Notes under the pieces: model-generated
The model's database searches: none
Seen by the model: only the letters and a program-made list of their open reading frames with translations
What the model was told of the DNA's origin: nothing
Program-made: the position numbers and the translations under genes
Assembly: GCF_900107975.1 (NCBI RefSeq)
Contig: NZ_FNVF01000002.1
Coordinates: forward strand, 77,178 to 141,177
Reading direction: 5' to 3'
Length of the DNA: 64,000 nucleotides
From: Paenibacillus sp. UNC499MF
GTDB taxonomy: Bacteria > Bacillota > Bacilli > Paenibacillales > NBRC-103111
Shown: positions 5,730 through 62,927 of the stretch, piece by piece
Layout: each line of letters begins with the position of its first letter
How positions within the stretch are numbered: position 1 is the first letter of the stretch

Positions 5730-5761
5730 AAGGGCATCTCTTTCGGAGATGTCCTTTCCCT
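5730..5761 (+). terminator. Probable terminator after the WGxxGxxG gene
   Basis: AAGGGCATCTC (5730-5740) pairs with GAGATGTCCTT (5746-5756) around a short loop; the T-run behind it is short and broken by Cs. Confidence 0.6.
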
Positions 5762-5835
5762 CTGTCTCCCGGCATCCAGGCAGTCCGATATAGTTTGTAG
5801 AAATTTTTCATTCATTGACCGGGAGGTGAGAAGAA

Positions 5836-6021
5836 ATGCTGACTCTGAGCCGAAGGGAAAACCATGAGGAACAGGAAACGGCAGAAATCACGCTGGAGCT
5901 TACGCCGAAAGAAGCCATGATCCTGGCCGGCACCGCAAATTTCGCTTACGACATCCGGGCCGCTGCCGAAGCGCGCCGCAAGGTGCGCCGTGAAGTGGAG
6001 GCGGTTTTGTTTGACCGCTGA
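5836..6021 (+). CDS. Small hypothetical protein (61 aa)
   Basis: An excellent GGGAGGTGA site lies 7 nt before the ATG, and codon use matches the neighbours, so I take this as a real gene. The 61-residue product is charged and soluble (Glu-rich N-terminal half, TPKEAMILAG, Arg/Lys-rich C-terminus) and likely mostly helical. No domain is recognised and there is no signal peptide or membrane segment. It lies alone between a putative terminator and the trmB promoter. Confidence 0.65.
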   Translation: MLTLSRRENHEEQETAEITLELTPKEAMILAGTANFAYDIRAAAEARRKVRREVEAVLFDR

Positions 6022-6116: not shown

Positions 6117-6186
6117 TTGAAGCATGTTTCCGTGAGCCCGCAGGGATTGACCGAGGGGACCGGATAAGGATTAGGGGAGGTAAGCA

Positions 6187-6918
6187 ATGCGTTTAAGAGG
6201 AAGAAAAGGCATCCGGGAAGCAATCGAGAAGCAGCGCGATCTCATTGTTCTGGAACCGGCTTTATATAAAGGAAAATGGGCTGAAGTGTTCGGGAACGGC
6301 AATCCGATTCATGTGGAACTCGGGATGGGCAAAGGCCAGTTCATCAGTGAAATGAGCCGGCGCAATCCCGGCATTAACTTCATCGGAGTAGATATGTACG
6401 ATGAACTGATCCGCAGAGCCAGCGAGAAAGTCCGGATCGCTCACGGCATTGACGAGACCGCCGTGGATGTGTCGCTGGACAATATCCGGCTGGCGCTGTT
6501 CAACATCGAACGGCTGGAAGAAGTGTTCGACGAGAACGAGCTGGAGCGGATTTATCTGAACTTCAGCGATCCGTGGCCCAAGAAGAAACATGCCAGACGC
6601 CGTCTGACCCATGCGGGGTTCGTTCATAAATACAAACACGCGCTTAACGAGCGCGGCGAAATTCATTTCAAAACCGATTCCAGATCCTTGTTCGAATTCT
6701 CGCTGAATTCTTTTGCGGACATGGATTTGAGAATGCGGAACATTTCCCTTGATCTGCACGGCGGCTTCGAGGAAGGATTCAATCCGGATCACGTCATGAC
6801 GGAATACGAAACAAAGTTTGCCAAACAGGGCATGAATATACACCGCGTAGAAGTGGTGCTCGGGTCCCGGGCGCTTGCAGAGCACGTGGAGCGCCTGAAA
6901 GAAGAACAGCAGTCCTAG
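6187..6918 (+). CDS. trmB: tRNA (guanine-N7-)-methyltransferase
   Basis: A 243-residue SAM-dependent enzyme that makes m7G46 in tRNA. The SAM-binding motif VELGMGKGQF (about residues 43-52) and the TrmB signature NFSDPWPKKKHARRRLT (about 120-136) are intact. The ATG follows GGGGAGG at good distance. The last six codons plus stop lie inside a perfect palindrome shared with the end of the convergent glycosyltransferase gene; the two stop codons overlap in CTAG at 6915-6918. Confidence 0.96.
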   Translation: MRLRGRKGIREAIEKQRDLIVLEPALYKGKWAEVFGNGNPIHVELGMGKGQFISEMSRRNPGINFIGVDMYDELIRRASEKVRIAHGIDETAVDVSLDNIRLALFNIERLEEVFDENELERIYLNFSDPWPKKKHARRRLTHAGFVHKYKHALNERGEIHFKTDSRSLFEFSLNSFADMDLRMRNISLDLHGGFEEGFNPDHVMTEYETKFAKQGMNIHRVEVVLGSRALAEHVERLKEEQQS

Positions 6919-6938
6919 ACGGACTGCTGTTCTTCTTT
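6898..6938. terminator. Bidirectional terminator made of both genes' last codons
   Basis: A perfect 18-bp stem (6898-6915 with 6921-6938) and a 5-nt loop TAGAC. Each arm encodes the C-terminal KEEQQS of the gene that runs into it, so the trmB and glycosyltransferase products end alike. Each strand ends in a T-rich tract. Confidence 0.85.
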
Positions 6939-8051
6939 GTGTATAAGCGTCATGATGACTTGAGAATAGTCCGTTTGGAACATATTGCGGCAGCTTTCCC
7001 GGATATCTTCCCGCATCCGCCGCATTTCGCCGCCTCGTTCCGATAAACCTTTGAACCATAAGCGGATCGTTTCTTCCGACAAAATGGATTCCCCGAAGCC
7101 GTTTTCCGTAAAGAAGATAAGGTTTTCTTCTTCCTGCCCCGGTATAGGCTTGTGGAAAAGCATCGGAATGCCTTTAGCCAAACCTTCCGTACAGGTCATG
7201 CCTCCGGGTTTGGTCACCAGCAGATCCGAAATTTCCATCAGCTTGTCGACTTCGTTCGTAAAGCCGAGAAGCTTTACATGAGGATGAAGGAAGCGCGGGT
7301 CTTCCTGGCATTTCGCTAAGGCCTTCTGATTGCTTCCGAAGCAGAAAATAAGCTGCACCCGGTCGCGCCAGCGGAGCATTTCGTCAAGAACAGCGTCATC
7401 CCCGATGAGTCCCCAGCCGCCTCCCATGACCAGTACCGTCGGGATGGAAGCCAGCCCGAACCGGCGGCGGATTTCCGCCTTGTCGTGAGGCTGGCGGAAA
7501 CCGGGATGCACCGGGATGCCGGTGATCTCGATCTTGCCGCCGTCTACTCCGCGGTGGAGCAGCTTGGTCTTGACTTTGTCGGATGACACGAGATATTTGT
7601 TCACTTCCGGCGAAATCCAGGTGCCGTGCACGTCGTAATCCGTTATGACCGTGCACAAAGGCACGGACAGCCCGGCTCTCTTCAGACGGGAAACGACGAT
7701 GCTCGGGAACGGATGCGTGCAGACGATAGCGTCGGGACGCAGCTGGGTGATGATCTGGGCCGTCTGGGCGTAAAAGATCCGGTGGAGCGCCATTTGTGTA
7801 ATGGGATTCAACGATTTTTTGTATTGGAAGCGATAAAGCTTTCCGTATAATTTCGGCTGGGAGTGGAGCGCTTTGCGATAGGCGGAAAAAATCCATCTGG
7901 CTAGCGTCGGGTGAAGGAAAGCGCCCAGTTCCAGAACACGCGTCTGGATGCCTGGATACAGCTGCCGCATATTTTCGGAAAGGGCGTAAGCGGCCTGGGT
8001 ATGTCCGGCACCGAAGCCTTCAGATAACAGCAGTACTCTTTTTTTGCGCAA
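6915..8051 (-). CDS. MGDG-synthase-like processive lipid glycosyltransferase (UgtP family)
   Basis: A 378-residue GT28-fold enzyme. The N-terminal MGDG synthase domain opens with VLLLSEGFGAGHT and the GT28 C-terminal nucleotide-sugar domain has VMGGGWGL and the KPGGMTC donor-binding loop. Relatives add glucose or galactose to diacylglycerol at the inner face of the membrane, giving glycolipids and lipoteichoic acid anchors; the sugar and acceptor here are inferred from the family. The start is TTG at 8051, with AAAGGTGA 7 nt upstream; the next in-frame ATG would cut the acceptor domain. It lies 55 nt downstream of the PAP2 gene on the same strand and may share its transcript. Confidence 0.86.
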   Translation of the reverse strand: MRKKRVLLLSEGFGAGHTQAAYALSENMRQLYPGIQTRVLELGAFLHPTLARWIFSAYRKALHSQPKLYGKLYRFQYKKSLNPITQMALHRIFYAQTAQIITQLRPDAIVCTHPFPSIVVSRLKRAGLSVPLCTVITDYDVHGTWISPEVNKYLVSSDKVKTKLLHRGVDGGKIEITGIPVHPGFRQPHDKAEIRRRFGLASIPTVLVMGGGWGLIGDDAVLDEMLRWRDRVQLIFCFGSNQKALAKCQEDPRFLHPHVKLLGFTNEVDKLMEISDLLVTKPGGMTCTEGLAKGIPMLFHKPIPGQEEENLIFFTENGFGESILSEETIRLWFKGLSERGGEMRRMREDIRESCRNMFQTDYSQVIMTLIHKEEQQSV

Positions 8052-54810: not shown

Positions 54811-55293
54811 TTACAACCTCATTCCCATGCGGCTTTTGAACCGGGTGATCAGCACCTGGCAGTCCACACTCGTAATGCCCGGCAGCGGGTACAGCTTTTC
54901 TCTAAGGAACAGCTCCATCTCATGATGGTTCGTAAAAAGCCCGTGCATATGAAGCTTACTGGGGCCCGTCATATGATAGAGGCTCGTCACCGAAGGCTCT
55001 TCCGCCAGCTCGTCGGCCACTTGGTGCAGAAACTTGGGCTCTACCTCTACGTTAAAAAAGGCGGAGACCCCGATTCCGATTTTCTCGGGATTGATGACCG
55101 CGGTGAATCGTTCGATCACTCCCGATTCCATCAAAGCTTGTATGCGTCCCTGTACGGCCACACGCGACAGCCCGATGTCTTTGGCCAGATCGGTATAGGA
55201 AATGCGGCCGTTGGCGTTCAGGGCCCGGATAATTTTGCGGTCGGTTTCGTCGATCCCCGCTGATTTGGTTTCCGGAAGCTCTTGGATGTTCAT
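54811..55293 (-). CDS. Lrp/AsnC-family regulator of the chromate operon
   Basis: A 160-residue regulator. An N-terminal HTH ([35 protein letters not shown]) and an AsnC-type ligand domain (about 75-150) are present. In B. subtilis the same gene order (ywrC-ywrB-ywrA) makes the chromate-responsive regulator ChrS/YwrC. The start is the ATG at 55293; the ribosome site is modest (GAAAGGCAGG). A longer reading adds 29 hydrophobic residues with no support. Confidence 0.86.
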
Positions 55294-55750
55294 TCGGATC
55301 GCCTGCCTTTCTTTTGTTTTAAATACAAAGTGTCGGATTAATAAACAAAATGATTTCGTTATGTAATAATATATAGGCATTTGCTTTCGATTTCAAATAT
55401 TATTGTAAAATTCCGGAACTATCGCAGGAGAGGGAACCGGATTTGTCCGAGCGGCGAGCATCCGAGTTTCCGGCTCTCAGGCTTTTCAGCTCGCCGCCTT
55501 TTTCAGTTCTCAGCCTCATTCAGTTCCTCCGGCTCTTCCGGTTCTTGTTTATGCCTCTGTCATTCCGTCACCACGTCTCAGCCGATTCCGTAACGTGGTT
55601 ATAGGGCAGCGCAAAGCTTCGCGCCATCGGCCGGGCTCGGGGCCGTATCCATTCCGCCGGCGTCCGTTTAGTTTGACCGGAAAAAGGCCGCCGCATGAAA
55701 GAGCGGGCCGGAAACACCCGGCGGCAAAACCGGATCTCCCGCCCCGCTTC
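55294..55750. other. Intergenic region between the chromate operon and the ABC exporter
   Basis: The minus strand has TTGTTT, 17 nt, TATTTA about 30 nt before the regulator start, a weak promoter. A perfect 9-bp inverted repeat, GCGGCGAGC with GCTCGCCGC (55451-55459 and 55489-55497), precedes a T-run and could be a plus-strand terminator. No gene. Confidence 0.45.
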
Positions 55751-57943
55751 TTACAAAACGGCCTGCGCTTCCGCAAACTGGCTGTTCCACAAGGCGCTGT
55801 AAGCGCCGCTCCGCCGCATAAGCTCGTCATGGCTCCCGGTCTCGACGATACGGCCCCCGTCCATGACGCAGATCCGGTCGCAGTGCCGGACCCCGCTCAG
55901 CCGGTGGGAGATCATCACCGTCGTGATGCCGAGGCCGGCAACCAGCGAGGTAACGGCCTTCTCGGTGACGGCGTCCAGACTGCTCGTCGCTTCGTCCATC
56001 AGAAGCAGGTGGGGCTTCTTCATAAGCGCCCTGGCAACCGAAAGCCGCTGGCGCTGGCCTCCCGACAGGTTGGAGCCGTTCTCCTCCAGCACCGTTTCGT
56101 AATGCCGGGGGAGCGAGGCGATAAAGTCGTGAATCTGCGCCTGCTTGCACACTTCCGCGACTTCTGCCAGAGAAGGCTTGGGGTCGAGTCCCAGACACAA
56201 GTTGTCGTACACCGTGCCGTGATAGAAAAACGCTTCCTGCGGCACATACGCGATCCGGCTGCGAAGGACACCGGCGGGGATTTCGCGCAGATCGCGGCCG
56301 CCAATCGCAATGCTTCCCTGCTCGGCTTCGTAAAATTTCATGAGCAGCTTAAGCAGGCTCGTTTTGCCGGATCCGCTCGGTCCGACCAGCGCCGTCGAGG
56401 AACCTTCACGGATCGTCAGACTTACATCGTTTAACGTAAGGGGTCTGCTCCCGTACCGGTACGAAAGATTGCGGATCAGAACATCCCCCCGCAGATCAAG
56501 ATCTTCCTTGGAGACGGCGGTTTCATCCGGCGAAAGCTCTTTTTCGGGCGCCAGATCCATGTACTCACCGAGTCTGGAGGCGGCGACATAGGCCGACTGG
56601 AGCACGGGCTGGAGGTCGATCAGCCGCTGCAGCGGGCTTAGAAAATAGGCCAGGAGCACGTTGAAGGTAATAAGCTGGCCGGCTGTAATCTGCCCGTCCA
56701 GCACCTGCCTGGCGCCGATCCACAGCAGGGCGACACCGCTTATAAGCTGGAGGGCCGTCTTCAGGGCCGACTGGACGTTGTTCATCAGGCCGTACTTGAA
56801 TGCCGTAGCCAGAAACGCTTCGTATTTCGCCCGTGCGGTCTCTTTAACCTCCTTTTGCGCGGTGGAAGCTTTGACGGTCTCGATTCCTTTAATGGATTCG
56901 ATGACATAAGAAGTCAGCTCGGCATTTTCGTTCATCATTTTCCGGTTATAGCGGTCAAAAATCCCCCGGAATCCCCCCATGATCAGCACATAAACCGGTA
57001 CGAGCAGCAGCGTAAGGCCGAAGAGAAGCGGATTCTGGTTATAAAGAACGGCAGCCGCTATCAGGAGCGTCAGGGAATCGACCGCAATATGAAGGGAGGC
57101 TTCGGAGAGCGCGTCCCGCACGTTGGAGGCGTCGGTCAGCCTGGAAGTGATTTCGCCGGTTTTGCGCGAACTGAAAAAACTCATCGGCAGCGAGATGACG
57201 TGATTGTAATATTGAAGCACAAGACCGCGGTCGATGCGCTGAGCGAGATATAGGAACAGATGATTCCTCGTGAAGTCGAGCAGGGTCTGAACCGCATACA
57301 GGACAATAACGCCGACCGAGACGAGCGTGAGGGTGCCTTGAAGCTTTTCGGCCATAATCGTATCGAGCAGAATTTGAAAATAAAAAGCGCCGGCCATGCC
57401 GATCGCCGTTACGAGAAGCGAGGCGGCAAGAATCGGCGCGAGAAGCTTCCGGTTGCTGCGGAGCAGAGGGAAGAAGCGTTTCACAGCGCCCGTCACCCGG
57501 CTGCCGGGTTTGAAGTGTTCGCCGGGCGTCAGCAGAACTAACACGCCGGTCCACAAGTTCAGAAATTCCTCCGTTTTGTAAGTCCGCATTCCTTCGGCGG
57601 GGTCGGCAGCGAGGACCTTCTCCCCGGTAATCTTGTAGATTACGACATAATGCTGGACTTCCTTGTCGACCACATGCGCGATAGCCGGAAGCTCGAATCC
57701 TGCGAACAGAGCCTGGGCGTCTCCTTTTACCGCTTCGGCGTTGAAGCCGAGCTTTCCGGCCCCCTGCACGATGCCGTAGGCATTCGTCCCCGTATGATCC
57801 GTACCGCAAGCTTCGCGGATCAGGGAGAGCGGCATTTTCAGACCGTAATAGCGGGCTACGGCAGCCAGGCAGGCGGGAGCACAATCTTTCCGGTCGTGCT
57901 GCCGGATACAAACCGGTTTTCGGTTTAAGCTCAACACAATCAC
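55751..57943 (-). CDS. Peptidase-containing ABC transporter (C39-ABC, SunT type)
   Basis: A 730-residue bacteriocin processing exporter. The N-terminal C39 protease (residues 1 to about 140) has the oxyanion Gln15, catalytic Cys21 in RKDCAPACL, His98 in QHYVVI and Asp114. Six membrane helices lie in about 165-430, and the ATPase (about 480-730) has Walker A GPSGSGKTS, signature LSGGQRQRLSVAR and Walker B LLLMDEATSSLD. Such proteins cut a double-glycine leader and export the core. It is divergent from a gene encoding exactly such a precursor. The start is unsure: GTG at 57943 or 57937, or TTG at 57934, near AGGAAGG. Confidence 0.93.
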   Translation of the reverse strand: MIVLSLNRKPVCIRQHDRKDCAPACLAAVARYYGLKMPLSLIREACGTDHTGTNAYGIVQGAGKLGFNAEAVKGDAQALFAGFELPAIAHVVDKEVQHYVVIYKITGEKVLAADPAEGMRTYKTEEFLNLWTGVLVLLTPGEHFKPGSRVTGAVKRFFPLLRSNRKLLAPILAASLLVTAIGMAGAFYFQILLDTIMAEKLQGTLTLVSVGVIVLYAVQTLLDFTRNHLFLYLAQRIDRGLVLQYYNHVISLPMSFFSSRKTGEITSRLTDASNVRDALSEASLHIAVDSLTLLIAAAVLYNQNPLLFGLTLLLVPVYVLIMGGFRGIFDRYNRKMMNENAELTSYVIESIKGIETVKASTAQKEVKETARAKYEAFLATAFKYGLMNNVQSALKTALQLISGVALLWIGARQVLDGQITAGQLITFNVLLAYFLSPLQRLIDLQPVLQSAYVAASRLGEYMDLAPEKELSPDETAVSKEDLDLRGDVLIRNLSYRYGSRPLTLNDVSLTIREGSSTALVGPSGSGKTSLLKLLMKFYEAEQGSIAIGGRDLREIPAGVLRSRIAYVPQEAFFYHGTVYDNLCLGLDPKPSLAEVAEVCKQAQIHDFIASLPRHYETVLEENGSNLSGGQRQRLSVARALMKKPHLLLMDEATSSLDAVTEKAVTSLVAGLGITTVMISHRLSGVRHCDRICVMDGGRIVETGSHDELMRRSGAYSALWNSQFAEAQAVL

Positions 57944-58121
57944 GCCTTCCTACAGCAGGTTCTTATCTTTAAATAACCCGTAACGGACAGATTAATAACA
58001 GTTTTAAATAGTAAAAAACAATAAATAAATGGATAATATACCCAAGTAACGATTAAATTTCAGAACCGGGGGTTAAATAAATACGAGGTTATTCAACCTA
58101 CTTCGGAAAGGAGCACTTACA

Positions 58122-58343
58122 ATGAAAACACTCAAAAGTAATCACTCTTTCACCAAGCTGGATGAAACCGAAATGATGGACGTCAACGGCGGCGACTGGA
58201 GAGACCATGCGCGCTGGGCGGCTGACTTCGTACGGGGCCTCTTCTCGAATCCCCTCGGCTGCGGACTCGGCGATGTAACCGGTGGCAACAGCAAACCGGC
58301 TAAAGGCTGCTCGCCTTACCCGGCCAAGAACAGCAACTGCTAA
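58122..58343 (+). CDS. Double-glycine-leader bacteriocin precursor (putative glycocin)
   Basis: A 73-residue precursor with AAAGGAG before its ATG. The leader FTKLDETEMMDVNGG fits the double-glycine rule: Leu at -12, Glu -8, Met -7, Val -4, Gly-Gly at -2/-1 (G23-G24). The predicted 49-residue core starts DWRDHARWAADFVRGLF, likely an amphipathic helix, and has Cys47 (in LGCGLG), Cys63 and the C-terminal Cys73. Divergent C39-ABC exporter and a downstream SunS-like glycosyltransferase make a glycocin cluster. The GCG context of Cys47 recalls the glycosylated cysteine of sublancin. Three cysteines, not the usual four or five, are unusual. Confidence 0.8.
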   Translation: MKTLKSNHSFTKLDETEMMDVNGGDWRDHARWAADFVRGLFSNPLGCGLGDVTGGNSKPAKGCSPYPAKNSNC

Positions 58344-58380
58344 TCAGGAAATAATCAGGCAATAATGTGGAAAAAGAGCG

Positions 58381-58405
58381 GGGCCGGGTTAACCGGCCCT
58401 GTTTT
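58381..58405 (+). terminator. Terminator between precursor and glycosyltransferase genes
   Basis: GGGCCGG (58381-58387), loop GTTAA, CCGGCCC (58393-58399), then TGTTTT. Partial readthrough would give much precursor message and little enzyme message. Confidence 0.7.
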
Positions 58406-58468
58406 CATTCCGTCATGCCGGGTAATGAACCCGGGAGGAAGACCGATAAGGCAGAGAGGAGCGGGAGG

Positions 58469-59983
58469 ATGGCTAACGAGGAAAGGGATCGGCTTGAAGG
58501 GTACAGGTATAATCTTCCGTTTTTTGAACATTTACATAAAAAGCTGCAGGATGCGGCGGGAATGTCCCGGAACCCGGCGGGGGAGGACGCGTCCGGAGAG
58601 GGATACGGCTCATCGGGAGCGGGAACTGCACCCTCCGGGACGCCCCGCACCGAACGAACGCTTAGTACGGGCCCGGGGGAGGAGAACCTGCTCCGCCTGA
58701 TAGAAGAGCGCATTGCCCTGCTGGATAAGGTGAGGGAATGCTCGGATGATCTTGTCCCGCTCATCGGGGAAGAGCCGCCCGGCATGGGTGAAGAGCTAGC
58801 CATGCTGGGCGAAACCGGGTACGGGGACCTGCAGGATACCCTGCTCCGGCCGGGCCGGGCGTCGATATCGGTCGTCATTCCCGTCTTCAATGAAGAGCGG
58901 TGCATCACGCGGTGCCTGGACAGTATCCGGGGGCTGGCCGACGAGATCATCGTCCTGGATACGGGTTCGACCGACGGCACTGTCGACTTGATCCGCGGCG
59001 AATACCCGCACGTCCGGCTCGAATTTGCGGAATGGCGGGACGATTTTGCCGAAATCCGCAACCGGCTGAACGATCTGGCGGCGGGAGACTGGATTTTCCA
59101 GTTGGATGCGGACGAGGCACTGATCGGCGATGGAGCGGAGCTCAGAGCTTTTTTGCAGCTGTTCTACGATTGTCCGGCCGAAGCGCTTGTCGTCTCGCCC
59201 AAAATCGTCAATCACGACGGCGGGGAATTGACGCTGACCCGCCGGATTTTCCGCCGCGAAGACGGGCTTCGCTACTACGGGGTCATTCATGAAGACCTGC
59301 GGAAGGAGATGGACGAAAGAGGCGGGGATCTGCGGCATCTCATGACGGAGTTCACCCTATCTCATGACGGGTACGAGCCTCAGGTGATCAAGGCGAAGAA
59401 CAAGCACGAGCGCAATATCCGGCTGGAAGAGCAGATGGCGGCGAGAGAGCCGGACAACATCCGGTGGCACTACTTTCTTGCACGGGAGAAGCAGGAAGCG
59501 GGGTTTCCCGATCATGAAATCGTGGAAGGCATCCGCACCGGACTCCAGCTGCGGGGAACGCGTACCGAGCCGGATCATTTTCATCTGCGCAGTCTGCTGC
59601 TGCTTGCCGGTATACTGGACAGCCGGCCTCAATATAACGAGCCGCTGAATGCCCTGGCGGAAGAAATCAACGCGCTTTATCCCGAATGCACCGACGGGCT
59701 GTACTATCTGCTGCTACATGAATATACGGACGGGACAGGGAATCTGGTAACCCGGGCCGAATCGGGGCTGAACCGGCTCAAACGGCTGGAAAATCCGTAT
59801 TCCCTCCTGCATCCGAGGAGCGATCATGTCATCCAGCTGCTCGGGGAAATGTTTATGGCGGCTGGGCAGTACAAGCGTGCTTTCCATCTCTACTCCCAAA
59901 TTTCCGACGAAAGAATTCTCCAAAATCTCCGGAAAAGGCTGGGCGGCCTGCAGGACGAAATAGCCGCTTTTCTGGAAGGATGA
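58469..59983 (+). CDS. SunS-like peptide glycosyltransferase (GT2)
   Basis: A 504-residue protein. After a polar N-terminal extension (to about residue 130) comes a GT2/GT-A domain: SVVIPVFNEERC, DEIIVLDTGSTDGTVDL, FAEWRDDFAEIRNR, LDADE (DxD at about 213-215), RRIFRREDG, GVIHEDL and LSHDGY; a TPR-like helical tail follows. This order matches SunS/ThuS, the S-glycosyltransferases of glycocins. It starts 125 nt after the precursor gene. The start is the ATG at 58469 with AGAGGAG 7 nt upstream; earlier in-frame ATGs lack ribosome sites. The sugar and acceptor residue are not predictable from sequence. General GT2-TPR proteins look similar, so this is strong but not final. Confidence 0.78.
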   Translation: MANEERDRLEGYRYNLPFFEHLHKKLQDAAGMSRNPAGEDASGEGYGSSGAGTAPSGTPRTERTLSTGPGEENLLRLIEERIALLDKVRECSDDLVPLIGEEPPGMGEELAMLGETGYGDLQDTLLRPGRASISVVIPVFNEERCITRCLDSIRGLADEIIVLDTGSTDGTVDLIRGEYPHVRLEFAEWRDDFAEIRNRLNDLAAGDWIFQLDADEALIGDGAELRAFLQLFYDCPAEALVVSPKIVNHDGGELTLTRRIFRREDGLRYYGVIHEDLRKEMDERGGDLRHLMTEFTLSHDGYEPQVIKAKNKHERNIRLEEQMAAREPDNIRWHYFLAREKQEAGFPDHEIVEGIRTGLQLRGTRTEPDHFHLRSLLLLAGILDSRPQYNEPLNALAEEINALYPECTDGLYYLLLHEYTDGTGNLVTRAESGLNRLKRLENPYSLLHPRSDHVIQLLGEMFMAAGQYKRAFHLYSQISDERILQNLRKRLGGLQDEIAAFLEG

Positions 59984-61821: not shown

Positions 61822-61849
61822 AAACCCCCGCGTTAATCCGCGGGGGTTT
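61822..61849. terminator. Bidirectional terminator overlapping a stop codon
   Basis: AAACCCCCGCG (61822-61832) pairs with CGCGGGGGTTT (61839-61849). The loop contains the stop codon of the minus-strand glycosyltransferase, whose last codons lie in the stem. Confidence 0.85.
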
Positions 61850-62927
61850 CCGTATTTTCGGCCAGCACGCCTTCCAGATAGGCTTTGTTGGCCAAAGCCT
61901 GGCGGTCGCCCGGGCGGTACTCCAGCACGGTCTCGTTGTGCCGGTGCGCCAGCTCATGCTCGCCCAGCCGGTCATAGCAGACGCAAAGCTGCAAATGCGG
62001 GAGCCAGGTCGAGCAGGCAACATGGGTCAGCGCCCATGAATCCGTATGCTTTCCGGCCTGCAAAGCGGCCTCATACCAGTAAGCGGCGGTGCGGTAGTCT
62101 CTTTTTCGTAAAAAGACATAGCCCAGACGGCAGCAAAATTCCGCGCGCGGGCTGGCGTAGAGGAACGAGCGGAACACGCTGTCCAGCTCCTGCTTCTCGT
62201 CTCCCAGCGCGTGAAAACAGTCCGCCAGCCTGCCGCATGCGGAGATATTGTCCTCGATCCAGCCGTTTCCGGTGCCGAGAAACTCTTCGTAATAATGGAT
62301 GGCCCGGTTGTATAACCGGTGGTCTTTCAATTCATTCGCGAAATAAAACAAATCCCGCGGGGAGAAAGTTTCCCCCTGGGCCAGCCTGTTTTCATAGATG
62401 CGCAGGTTGCGTCCGCTGTCGTGGTGCAAGGCCCGGTGGGTGACGGCGATATCCGCCGTCCGGACGTTGCCGCGGACCTCCAGATATTCATGCACGGGCC
62501 CGTGCCAGAGAAAGCCGCGGCTTTTCTTGACGAGCCGGTTGCGCCGTATGCTGGCGGAGACTTGGCCGAATTCGTCAAAAGCGAGGTTATAATTCATATT
62601 CACCGCATCGACGGAGGAATCGAGGGTTCTTTTGAGCGCGGCGAACTTGATCCGGTCCGGCTCTTCGAATACGTCGTCCGCGTCCAGCCAGAGGATATAC
62701 TCTTTTTCGGCCAGGCTGAACGAATAATTGCGGGCGGCGGCGAAGTCATCGATCCACCGGAAATGATAGATGCGGTCCGTATATTCCCGTACGATAGAGA
62801 CCGTTCTGTCTGTGGAGCCCGTATCCACGATGACGATCTCGTCGGCGAGATCCGCCACGGACGCGAGGCAGCGCCCGATATGGTCTTCCTCGTTCTTCAC
62901 GATCATACAAAGGCTGATGGTAGGCAA
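61833..62927 (-). CDS. GT2 glycosyltransferase with TPR-like tail
   Basis: A 364-residue protein: a GT2 domain (1 to about 225) with MIVKNEEDHIGRCLASV, DEIVIVDTGSTDRTV, WIDDFAAARNYSF, LDADD (DxD), GPVHEYL and VTHRAL, and a helical-repeat tail (about 230-364). It is the common short form of this architecture in Bacillus and Paenibacillus and is related to, but shorter than, the SunS-like protein at 58469. The start is TTG at 62927 with GGGAGGG 7 nt upstream. The acceptor is unknown; a role in the bacteriocin cluster is possible but separated by the amidase. Confidence 0.85.
   Translation of the reverse strand: MPTISLCMIVKNEEDHIGRCLASVADLADEIVIVDTGSTDRTVSIVREYTDRIYHFRWIDDFAAARNYSFSLAEKEYILWLDADDVFEEPDRIKFAALKRTLDSSVDAVNMNYNLAFDEFGQVSASIRRNRLVKKSRGFLWHGPVHEYLEVRGNVRTADIAVTHRALHHDSGRNLRIYENRLAQGETFSPRDLFYFANELKDHRLYNRAIHYYEEFLGTGNGWIEDNISACGRLADCFHALGDEKQELDSVFRSFLYASPRAEFCCRLGYVFLRKRDYRTAAYWYEAALQAGKHTDSWALTHVACSTWLPHLQLCVCYDRLGEHELAHRHNETVLEYRPGDRQALANKAYLEGVLAENTETPAD

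Follow-up and report, generated by a model that had tools for sequence, protein, structure and literature searches.

Do three adjoining genes at positions 55751 to 59983 of a 64,000-nucleotide (nt) stretch of DNA from Paenibacillus sp. UNC499MF form a glycocin (glycosylated bacteriocin) system, and if so, of which kind? The stretch as a whole is called the window here, and coordinates count from its first letter; the source genome consists of 37 contigs and is 95.8% complete. The genes encode an exporter, a small precursor peptide and a glycosyltransferase (GT). They probably constitute a glycocin-type cassette, which makes, glycosylates and exports a small secreted peptide, and the glycocin interpretation given to them in the first-pass annotation is supported. 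We infer the glycosylation itself, the sugar, its site and a disulfide, and also, somewhat less surely than the type of the cassette, a bacteriocin (killing) activity.

The first-pass annotation had described a C39 exporter on the minus strand, a divergent 73-residue precursor and a SunS-like GT2 125 nt downstream, and all three genes, their order and their strands were verified. The features are listed below.

55751..57943, minus strand: peptidase-containing ABC exporter (C39, membrane and ATPase parts), SunT-like
57944..58121, no strand: divergent regulatory region, the gap between exporter and precursor, whose 3' end is a strong ribosome-binding site, GGAAAGGAG
58122..58193, plus strand: leader peptide of 24 residues, ending in Gly-Gly
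58194..58343 including the stop codon, plus strand: core peptide of 49 residues, with an amphipathic N-terminal segment, an LGCGLGD loop (Cys47) and a C-terminal segment from Cys63 to Cys73
58375..58405, plus strand: hairpin and T-rich end between precursor and GT, a probable attenuating terminator
58469..59983, plus strand: GT, a SunS-clade GT2 of 504 residues, with an N-terminal extension, a GT2 domain with D213-A-D215 and a C-terminal domain

The GT start was set to the ATG at 58469, not to the listed GTG at 58367, because the same-genus relatives start there; with this start the gap between precursor and GT is exactly 125 nt.

The precursor is present in 5 of the 98 genomes searched (its own genome counted), divided three to two between two genera, and in all five carriers it is flanked by the exporter and the GT. 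Paenibacillus chitinolyticus NBRC 15660 and Paenibacillus sp. HGH0039 are among the carriers, with precursors 96% identical to that of the window and with cores identical to each other, and the exporter is 93-94% identical in two same-genus genomes. Across the genera, identity is 75% for the precursor, 65% for the exporter and 52% for the GT. A conserved precursor next to the GT orthologues, on which the first-pass annotation had let its reading depend, was thus found at 5 of 5 loci. When the precursor profile was run against 392 genomes of the order, 17 genomes gave matches at E<=0.01, among which the known five lay at E<=1.8e-48 and the other 12 (E 7.5e-4 or worse) were read as chance. Two further genomes of the same genus, G001 and G004, were searched and contain neither the precursor nor any match to the exporter at E<=1e-100; the GT has no better match there than E about 3e-23, a value typical of general GT2s. 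Such general relatives are common in the genomes searched, but the GT has no close match in genomes that lack the exporter and the precursor.

Four relatives were also compared with the window, using all its Open Reading Frames (ORFs) of at least 30 residues over 16 kb. The three genes of the cassette have matches in the two other-genus loci, and the only other matches there are alternate frames inside the cassette genes and, by family likeness, a second GT2 of the window; the flanks of these loci are otherwise unrelated to those of the window. Since only the exporter, the precursor and the GT (with the inner frames and the second GT2) reach the other-genus loci, the cassette has no conserved fourth gene. 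The three genes are not a chance grouping: the precursor is kept in 5 of 98 genomes and two genera, with a ratio of nonsynonymous to synonymous substitution rates (dN/dS) of about 0.06 within the genus. Beyond these genomes, a search of plasmids with the precursor returned only three spurious records (E 3-6), and the cassette-family GT alignment found no relative among viral contigs. An alignment of 13 GTs found 311 relatives in the viral contigs, of which the best 80 mostly aligned over the GT2 part, and SunS itself found six loci, each 100% identical to SPbeta SunS. Among the matches listed in the literature on glycocins and Paenibacillus bacteriocins no account of this locus was found; passages of one paper refer to a Paenibacillus sp. 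with a putative glycocin cluster but give no details (PMC5100339).

The GT matches the SunS profile TIGR04195 with 203.7 bits over profile positions 57-417 of 421, below the curated cut-off of 350 bits. Its best solved structures by sequence are 7msk (184.5 bits) and SunS, 7msn (141.9 bits); the match reaches through the C-terminal part, and the GT aligns with SunS over the catalytic and C-terminal parts. The columns invariant between this GT and 12 others include D164, S167, D169, T171, W189, R197, N198 and D213, together with D215, H274, E275, H299, K312, R315, N316 and W333. The SunS profile hit 44 of 392 order genomes (E<=1e-40) and 9 of 398 class genomes (E<=1e-38; at most four candidates scored per genome), two of which were already counted, giving 51 hits from Bacilli. 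All 51 neighbourhoods were read, several of them ending at contig ends; the C39 profile used was derived from seven exporters, that of the window among them. It turned out that a C39 exporter lies near 8 of the 51 (6 of 44 at order level and 2 of 7 at class level), and that these eight, the window family included, have the eight highest SunS-profile scores (186-478 bits), the other 43 reaching at most 167.4. This split provides a practical rule for separating glycocin GTs from general GT2s in Bacilli.

Two trees point the same way. In a tree of 31 rows the GT falls in a 14-row set with all nine other C39-linked GTs used (99/98). In a tree of 59 rows all 43 unlinked GT2s (42 profile hits and one from Bacillus velezensis) lie beyond one branch (84/72), and the GT is sister to the enterocin F4-9-type GT of locus L090 (98/89), where the program warns that long branches meet. 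L090 is the nearest C39-linked GT in the smaller tree as well (89/74). The grouping with general GT2-TPR proteins that the first-pass annotation had named as contrary evidence was not found: the trees keep the GT apart with moderate support, and a general GT2-TPR protein is rejected on the C39 linkage, the score split and both trees. The GT can thus be regarded as a dedicated SunS-type enzyme beside a precursor, one of the features that define glycocins, although it stays under the TIGR04195 cut-off itself. A second GT2-TPR gene (61833-62927, minus strand), about 2 kb downstream and conserved in the same genus, was considered and rejected as a part of the system; it scores 74.8 bits to TIGR04195 and groups with unlinked GT2s. 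Another SunS-clade GT (6175-7473, minus strand, in G376:C60:424000-437000, locus L084) is located in a class I lanthipeptide-like cluster that also encodes an ABC transporter, Lant_dehydr_C and three LanC-like proteins, possibly a cluster for a glycosylated lanthipeptide, and because of this location L084 is taken as peptide-linked too.

The exporter matches TIGR01193 with 668 bits (cut-off 524) and PF03412 with 122.6 bits, besides PF00664 and PF00005, and is the only C39 match found in the genome at its 95.8% completeness. The classical double-glycine leader pattern is F-15, L-12, E-8, M-7, V-4, G-2 and G-1. The precursor bears all of these positions (F10, L13, E17, M18, V21, G23 and G24), invariant in 5 of 5 loci, so the complete double-glycine leader of the first-pass annotation holds. 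A glycocin's pairing of such a leader with a C39 exporter above the family cut-off is therefore present here, and the C39 domain presumably cleaves the precursor, judging from these motifs.

Family libraries gave only sub-cut-off matches to the precursor, in seven families (E 0.02-0.33), with ComC-type and class IIb/IIc models among them. Three cysteines are invariant in 5 of 5 loci (C47-X15-C63-X9-C73, the last segment varying in length), as are S42, T53, S57 and S64. The N-terminal segment of the core has a helical moment of 0.69 (p 0.008), and that of an orthologue 0.74 (p 0.003). We calculated dN/dS by the Nei-Gojobori method against HGH0039 and NBRC 15660, relying on the same-genus comparison because synonymous sites are saturated or nearly so against the other genus. 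The values are 0.057 and 0.063 for the precursor and 0.048 and 0.054 for its core, which is short for this purpose (49 codons); the GT has 0.28 and 0.24, the exporter and the adjoining amidase 0.10 each, and the AsnC-type regulator 0.11 and 0.06. Purifying selection on the core is strong.

A course of events can be proposed from these parts. The 73-residue precursor would be made in excess, with the intergenic hairpin passing a smaller amount of GT message. In the cytoplasm the GT would add a hexose or N-acetylhexosamine (HexNAc) to the core, most likely on Cys47 of the Gly-Cys-Gly (GCG) loop; the C39 domain would then cut after Gly24 and the exporter secrete a glycopeptide of 49 residues. Outside the cell, Cys63 and Cys73 may pair to form a small disulfide loop at the C terminus, either unaided or via a general DsbB-type protein. 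The mature peptide would be an amphipathic helix followed by a glycosylated loop, acting as a narrow-spectrum bacteriocin. The sugar is placed on Cys47 because GCG also occurs in SunA, whose sugar is on Cys22 according to passages of PMC5100339, and in the precursors of L071, L239 and L240, that is, in 4 of the 10 other precursors beside SunS-clade GTs.

For disulfide formation and immunity the window holds no recognised gene. The first-pass annotation had seen no thioredoxin-like bdbB and no obvious small immunity gene, and this stands as far as checked: the window has no fourth gene in common with the other-genus loci, and Pfam on 12 other window ORFs (49.6-64 kb) matched ten to unrelated families and two to nothing, with no thioredoxin, DsbB or immunity family. 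The seven flanking ORFs of the other-genus locus L069 likewise showed none of these families. The thioredoxin-like or DsbB gene of a classical glycocin cluster was thus not found in the window ORFs or the L069 flanks, and a hidden fourth gene is rejected on the cross-genus ORF comparison together with both Pfam searches. One DsbB-family protein above the Pfam cut-off is encoded elsewhere in the genome (contig C36), so a general disulfide route exists. According to passages of two papers, characterised clusters have thioredoxin-like genes and mostly an immunity gene, and pallidocin is made from five genes with no immunity gene named there (PMC8620827, PMC6405829). Self-protection here must presumably come from the exporter or from an unlinked gene, or be unneeded.

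Several points weigh against a glycocin-type cassette with its sugar on Cys47. The GT misses the equivalog threshold of TIGR04195; a single genome passes it among the 392 of the order and a single one among the 398 of the class, GTs of the enterocin and GccF types not having been scored against it. Midpoint rooting of the 59-row tree, a placement in which the root is not inferred, groups the GT family, together with L090, on the side where the unlinked GT2s lie (93/89), and for this reason a single glycocin clade is unproven; a tree in which 13 C39-linked GTs are made to form a clade that excludes L084 is weakly rejected (p-AU 0.037). The window ORFs at 49.6-64 kb and the L069 flanks contain no recognisable immunity gene, and at the G035 locus the exporter and the GT are both split by frameshifts (this GT was left out of alignments and trees). 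As to the site, GCG is missing from 6 of the 10 other precursors (L072 and L090-L094). Because shuffling the core produces GCG in 5% of cases, and because the likeness to the SunA core falls short of significance (p 0.07), Cys47 is a proposal only. Besides, enterocin F4-9, the type of the nearest characterised relative, carries its sugars on Ser/Thr, as passages of PMC8620827 state, whereas we infer a sugar on cysteine.

This last point bears on where the sugar sits. In an O-glycosylated glycocin it would be on Ser/Thr (S42, T53, S57 or S64, all invariant) and the cysteines used otherwise, for example in a dimer or with one free thiol. Both trees give L090 as the nearest C39-linked GT, and its precursor has Ser37 and Thr46 at the enterocin F4-9 positions (passages of PMC8620827); yet L090 is a long branch, 31% identical to the window GT, and Ser37/Thr46 directly precede Cys in its precursor, where the cassette precursor has Gly, Gly and Asn/Arg. 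We think this arrangement possible but doubt it. The last Cys of glycocin F/ASM1 carries a sugar, and by analogy the C-terminal Cys73 might do so here, with a Cys47-Cys63 disulfide. All five orthologues end in Cys although the length changes just before it, and ASM1-type precursors likewise end in Cys; but neither tree places the GT near the AsmA/GccF-type GTs, and the core shows no similarity to ASM1 (p 0.73 and 0.45). We consider this site rather unlikely.

What the peptide does, and whether it is modified at all, can also be read otherwise. A glycosylated signalling peptide (pheromone) would come from the same biosynthesis and would need no immunity gene, because its receivers would be a partner or the population of the producer itself. 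This agrees with the lack of a fourth gene common to both genera, with a core far more conserved than its own GT (dN/dS 0.05 vs 0.24-0.28), with the precursor's lead in cross-genus identity (75%, vs 52% for the GT and 65% for the exporter) and with the weak sub-cut-off ComC-type matches. However, these matches cover mainly the leader, no receptor or regulator gene is conserved beside the cassette, and the characterised glycocins described in passages of PMC6405829 are antibacterial, though the modified peptide Hyp2 is described there as inactive on the strains tried; we regard a pheromone as quite improbable. Still less credit, indeed very little, can be given to an ordinary unmodified class II bacteriocin and exporter standing beside an unrelated GT2. 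Its leader resembles class II leaders, weak sub-cut-off class IIb/IIc matches exist and general GT2 relatives are common in these genomes, but the GT accompanies precursor and exporter in a second genus with otherwise unrelated flanks, has no close match where both are missing and clusters with C39-linked GTs.

If the cassette is of glycocin type, it is a new variant, so classed because the biosynthetic part of the definition is present but the two disulfides and the oxidoreductase gene are missing. Passages of PMC8620827 give two disulfides for all glycocins, and passages of PMC12457901 give five cysteines for characterised glycocins before its own seven- and eight-Cys cases. The precursor has three cysteines, fewer than any characterised glycocin compared here, and its core contains no CX6C pairs, so the classical helix-loop-helix with two disulfides is not found. 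It is possible, though less likely than not, that it represents a stripped-down three-gene class, whose peptide has a single sugar and a single C-terminal disulfide loop in place of the double-disulfide helical hairpin and is possibly a signal rather than a weapon. If that were true, the near-invariant core and the missing immunity gene would suit a secreted glycopeptide that acts on one fixed target or receptor. Peptide S/O-glycosyltransferases are useful tools of which there are few. With three genes and one short three-Cys substrate, the cassette is about as simple a system as there is for asking what such enzymes recognise, and whether glycocins need the double-disulfide hairpin and an immunity gene at all. 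A three-Cys GCG precursor also adjoins a SunS-clade GT and a C39 exporter at L240 (G601:C20:36000-45944, 5733-6005), perhaps a natural single-disulfide relative.

Among known systems, L090, on an Enterococcus faecalis plasmid (NZ_CP144766), would be the enterocin F4-9 cluster (enfT-A-B-C-I), judging from gene order and the Ser37/Thr46 positions. Like the cassette it combines a C39 exporter and a double-glycine precursor with the nearest C39-linked GT, and its precursor has a C-terminal C-X8-C, vs C-X9-C or C-X8-C in the cassette family. It differs in its thioredoxin-like genes, in a small membrane-type protein encoded behind the GT, and in a four-Cys precursor with O-linked sugars (passages of PMC8620827); core similarity is not significant (p 0.28 and 0.07). 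Sublancin 168 (SunA/SunS/SunT; L089, phage SPBc2) likewise joins a precursor, a SunS GT and a C39 exporter, has an annotated stem-loop directly after the precursor gene and carries its glycosyl-Cys in a GCG motif, which the cassette precursor shares. However, it has BdbA, a DsbB-type protein, SunI and two disulfides, whereas the cassette lacks such genes and has too few cysteines, and SunS is only 25-27% identical to the cassette GT.

The glycocin F/ASM1 family (L091 and L092) has the same GT and C39 exporter type and a precursor ending in Cys, but also two thioredoxin-like genes, a LytTR regulator, five cysteines or more and a distant GT (28 and 27% identical). L094 (E. faecalis pUAMSEL2) and L093 (Edwardsiella tarda) resemble the cassette in GT, C39 exporter and low-Cys (two-Cys) precursor, and differ in accessory genes that the cassette lacks. 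The best core similarities outside the family are those of L094 (p 0.009 and 0.04) and L071 (p 0.02 and 0.33), leads only, uncorrected for 14 comparisons; that of L093 is not significant (p 0.12 and 0.26). L093, L094 and L096 (Edwardsiella, Enterococcus and Photobacterium plasmids) share, besides a SunS-clade GT and C39 genes, an alike accessory protein of about 112-125 residues annotated as hypothetical or NifS, and the L096 record contains a related unannotated precursor (tblastn).

The divergent region between exporter and precursor is conserved with two same-genus loci, and one weak minus-strand promoter match lies at 58063-58035. Between precursor and GT, a hairpin with a T-rich end is predicted in 5 of 5 loci (z = -4.7, -2.0, -3.1, -4.7 and -4.2), the weakest of which (L067) was equalled by 5 of 200 shuffles; the stem sequences differ between the two genera. 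A terminator scan includes a shorter stem at 58386-58399, with 9 sites overall vs 5.5 +/- 2.5 in shuffles. The hairpin may attenuate transcription, giving more peptide than enzyme.

Two further loci are recorded for their own sake. L072 (G295:C1:3225000-3239000) is another glycocin-type cluster in Paenibacillales, with a five-Cys precursor, a C39 exporter and thioredoxin-like and DsbA-like genes read from translations only. In the window, two adjoining chromate-transporter halves (PF02417; 53641-54809, minus strand) stand beside an Lrp/AsnC-type regulator (54811-55380).

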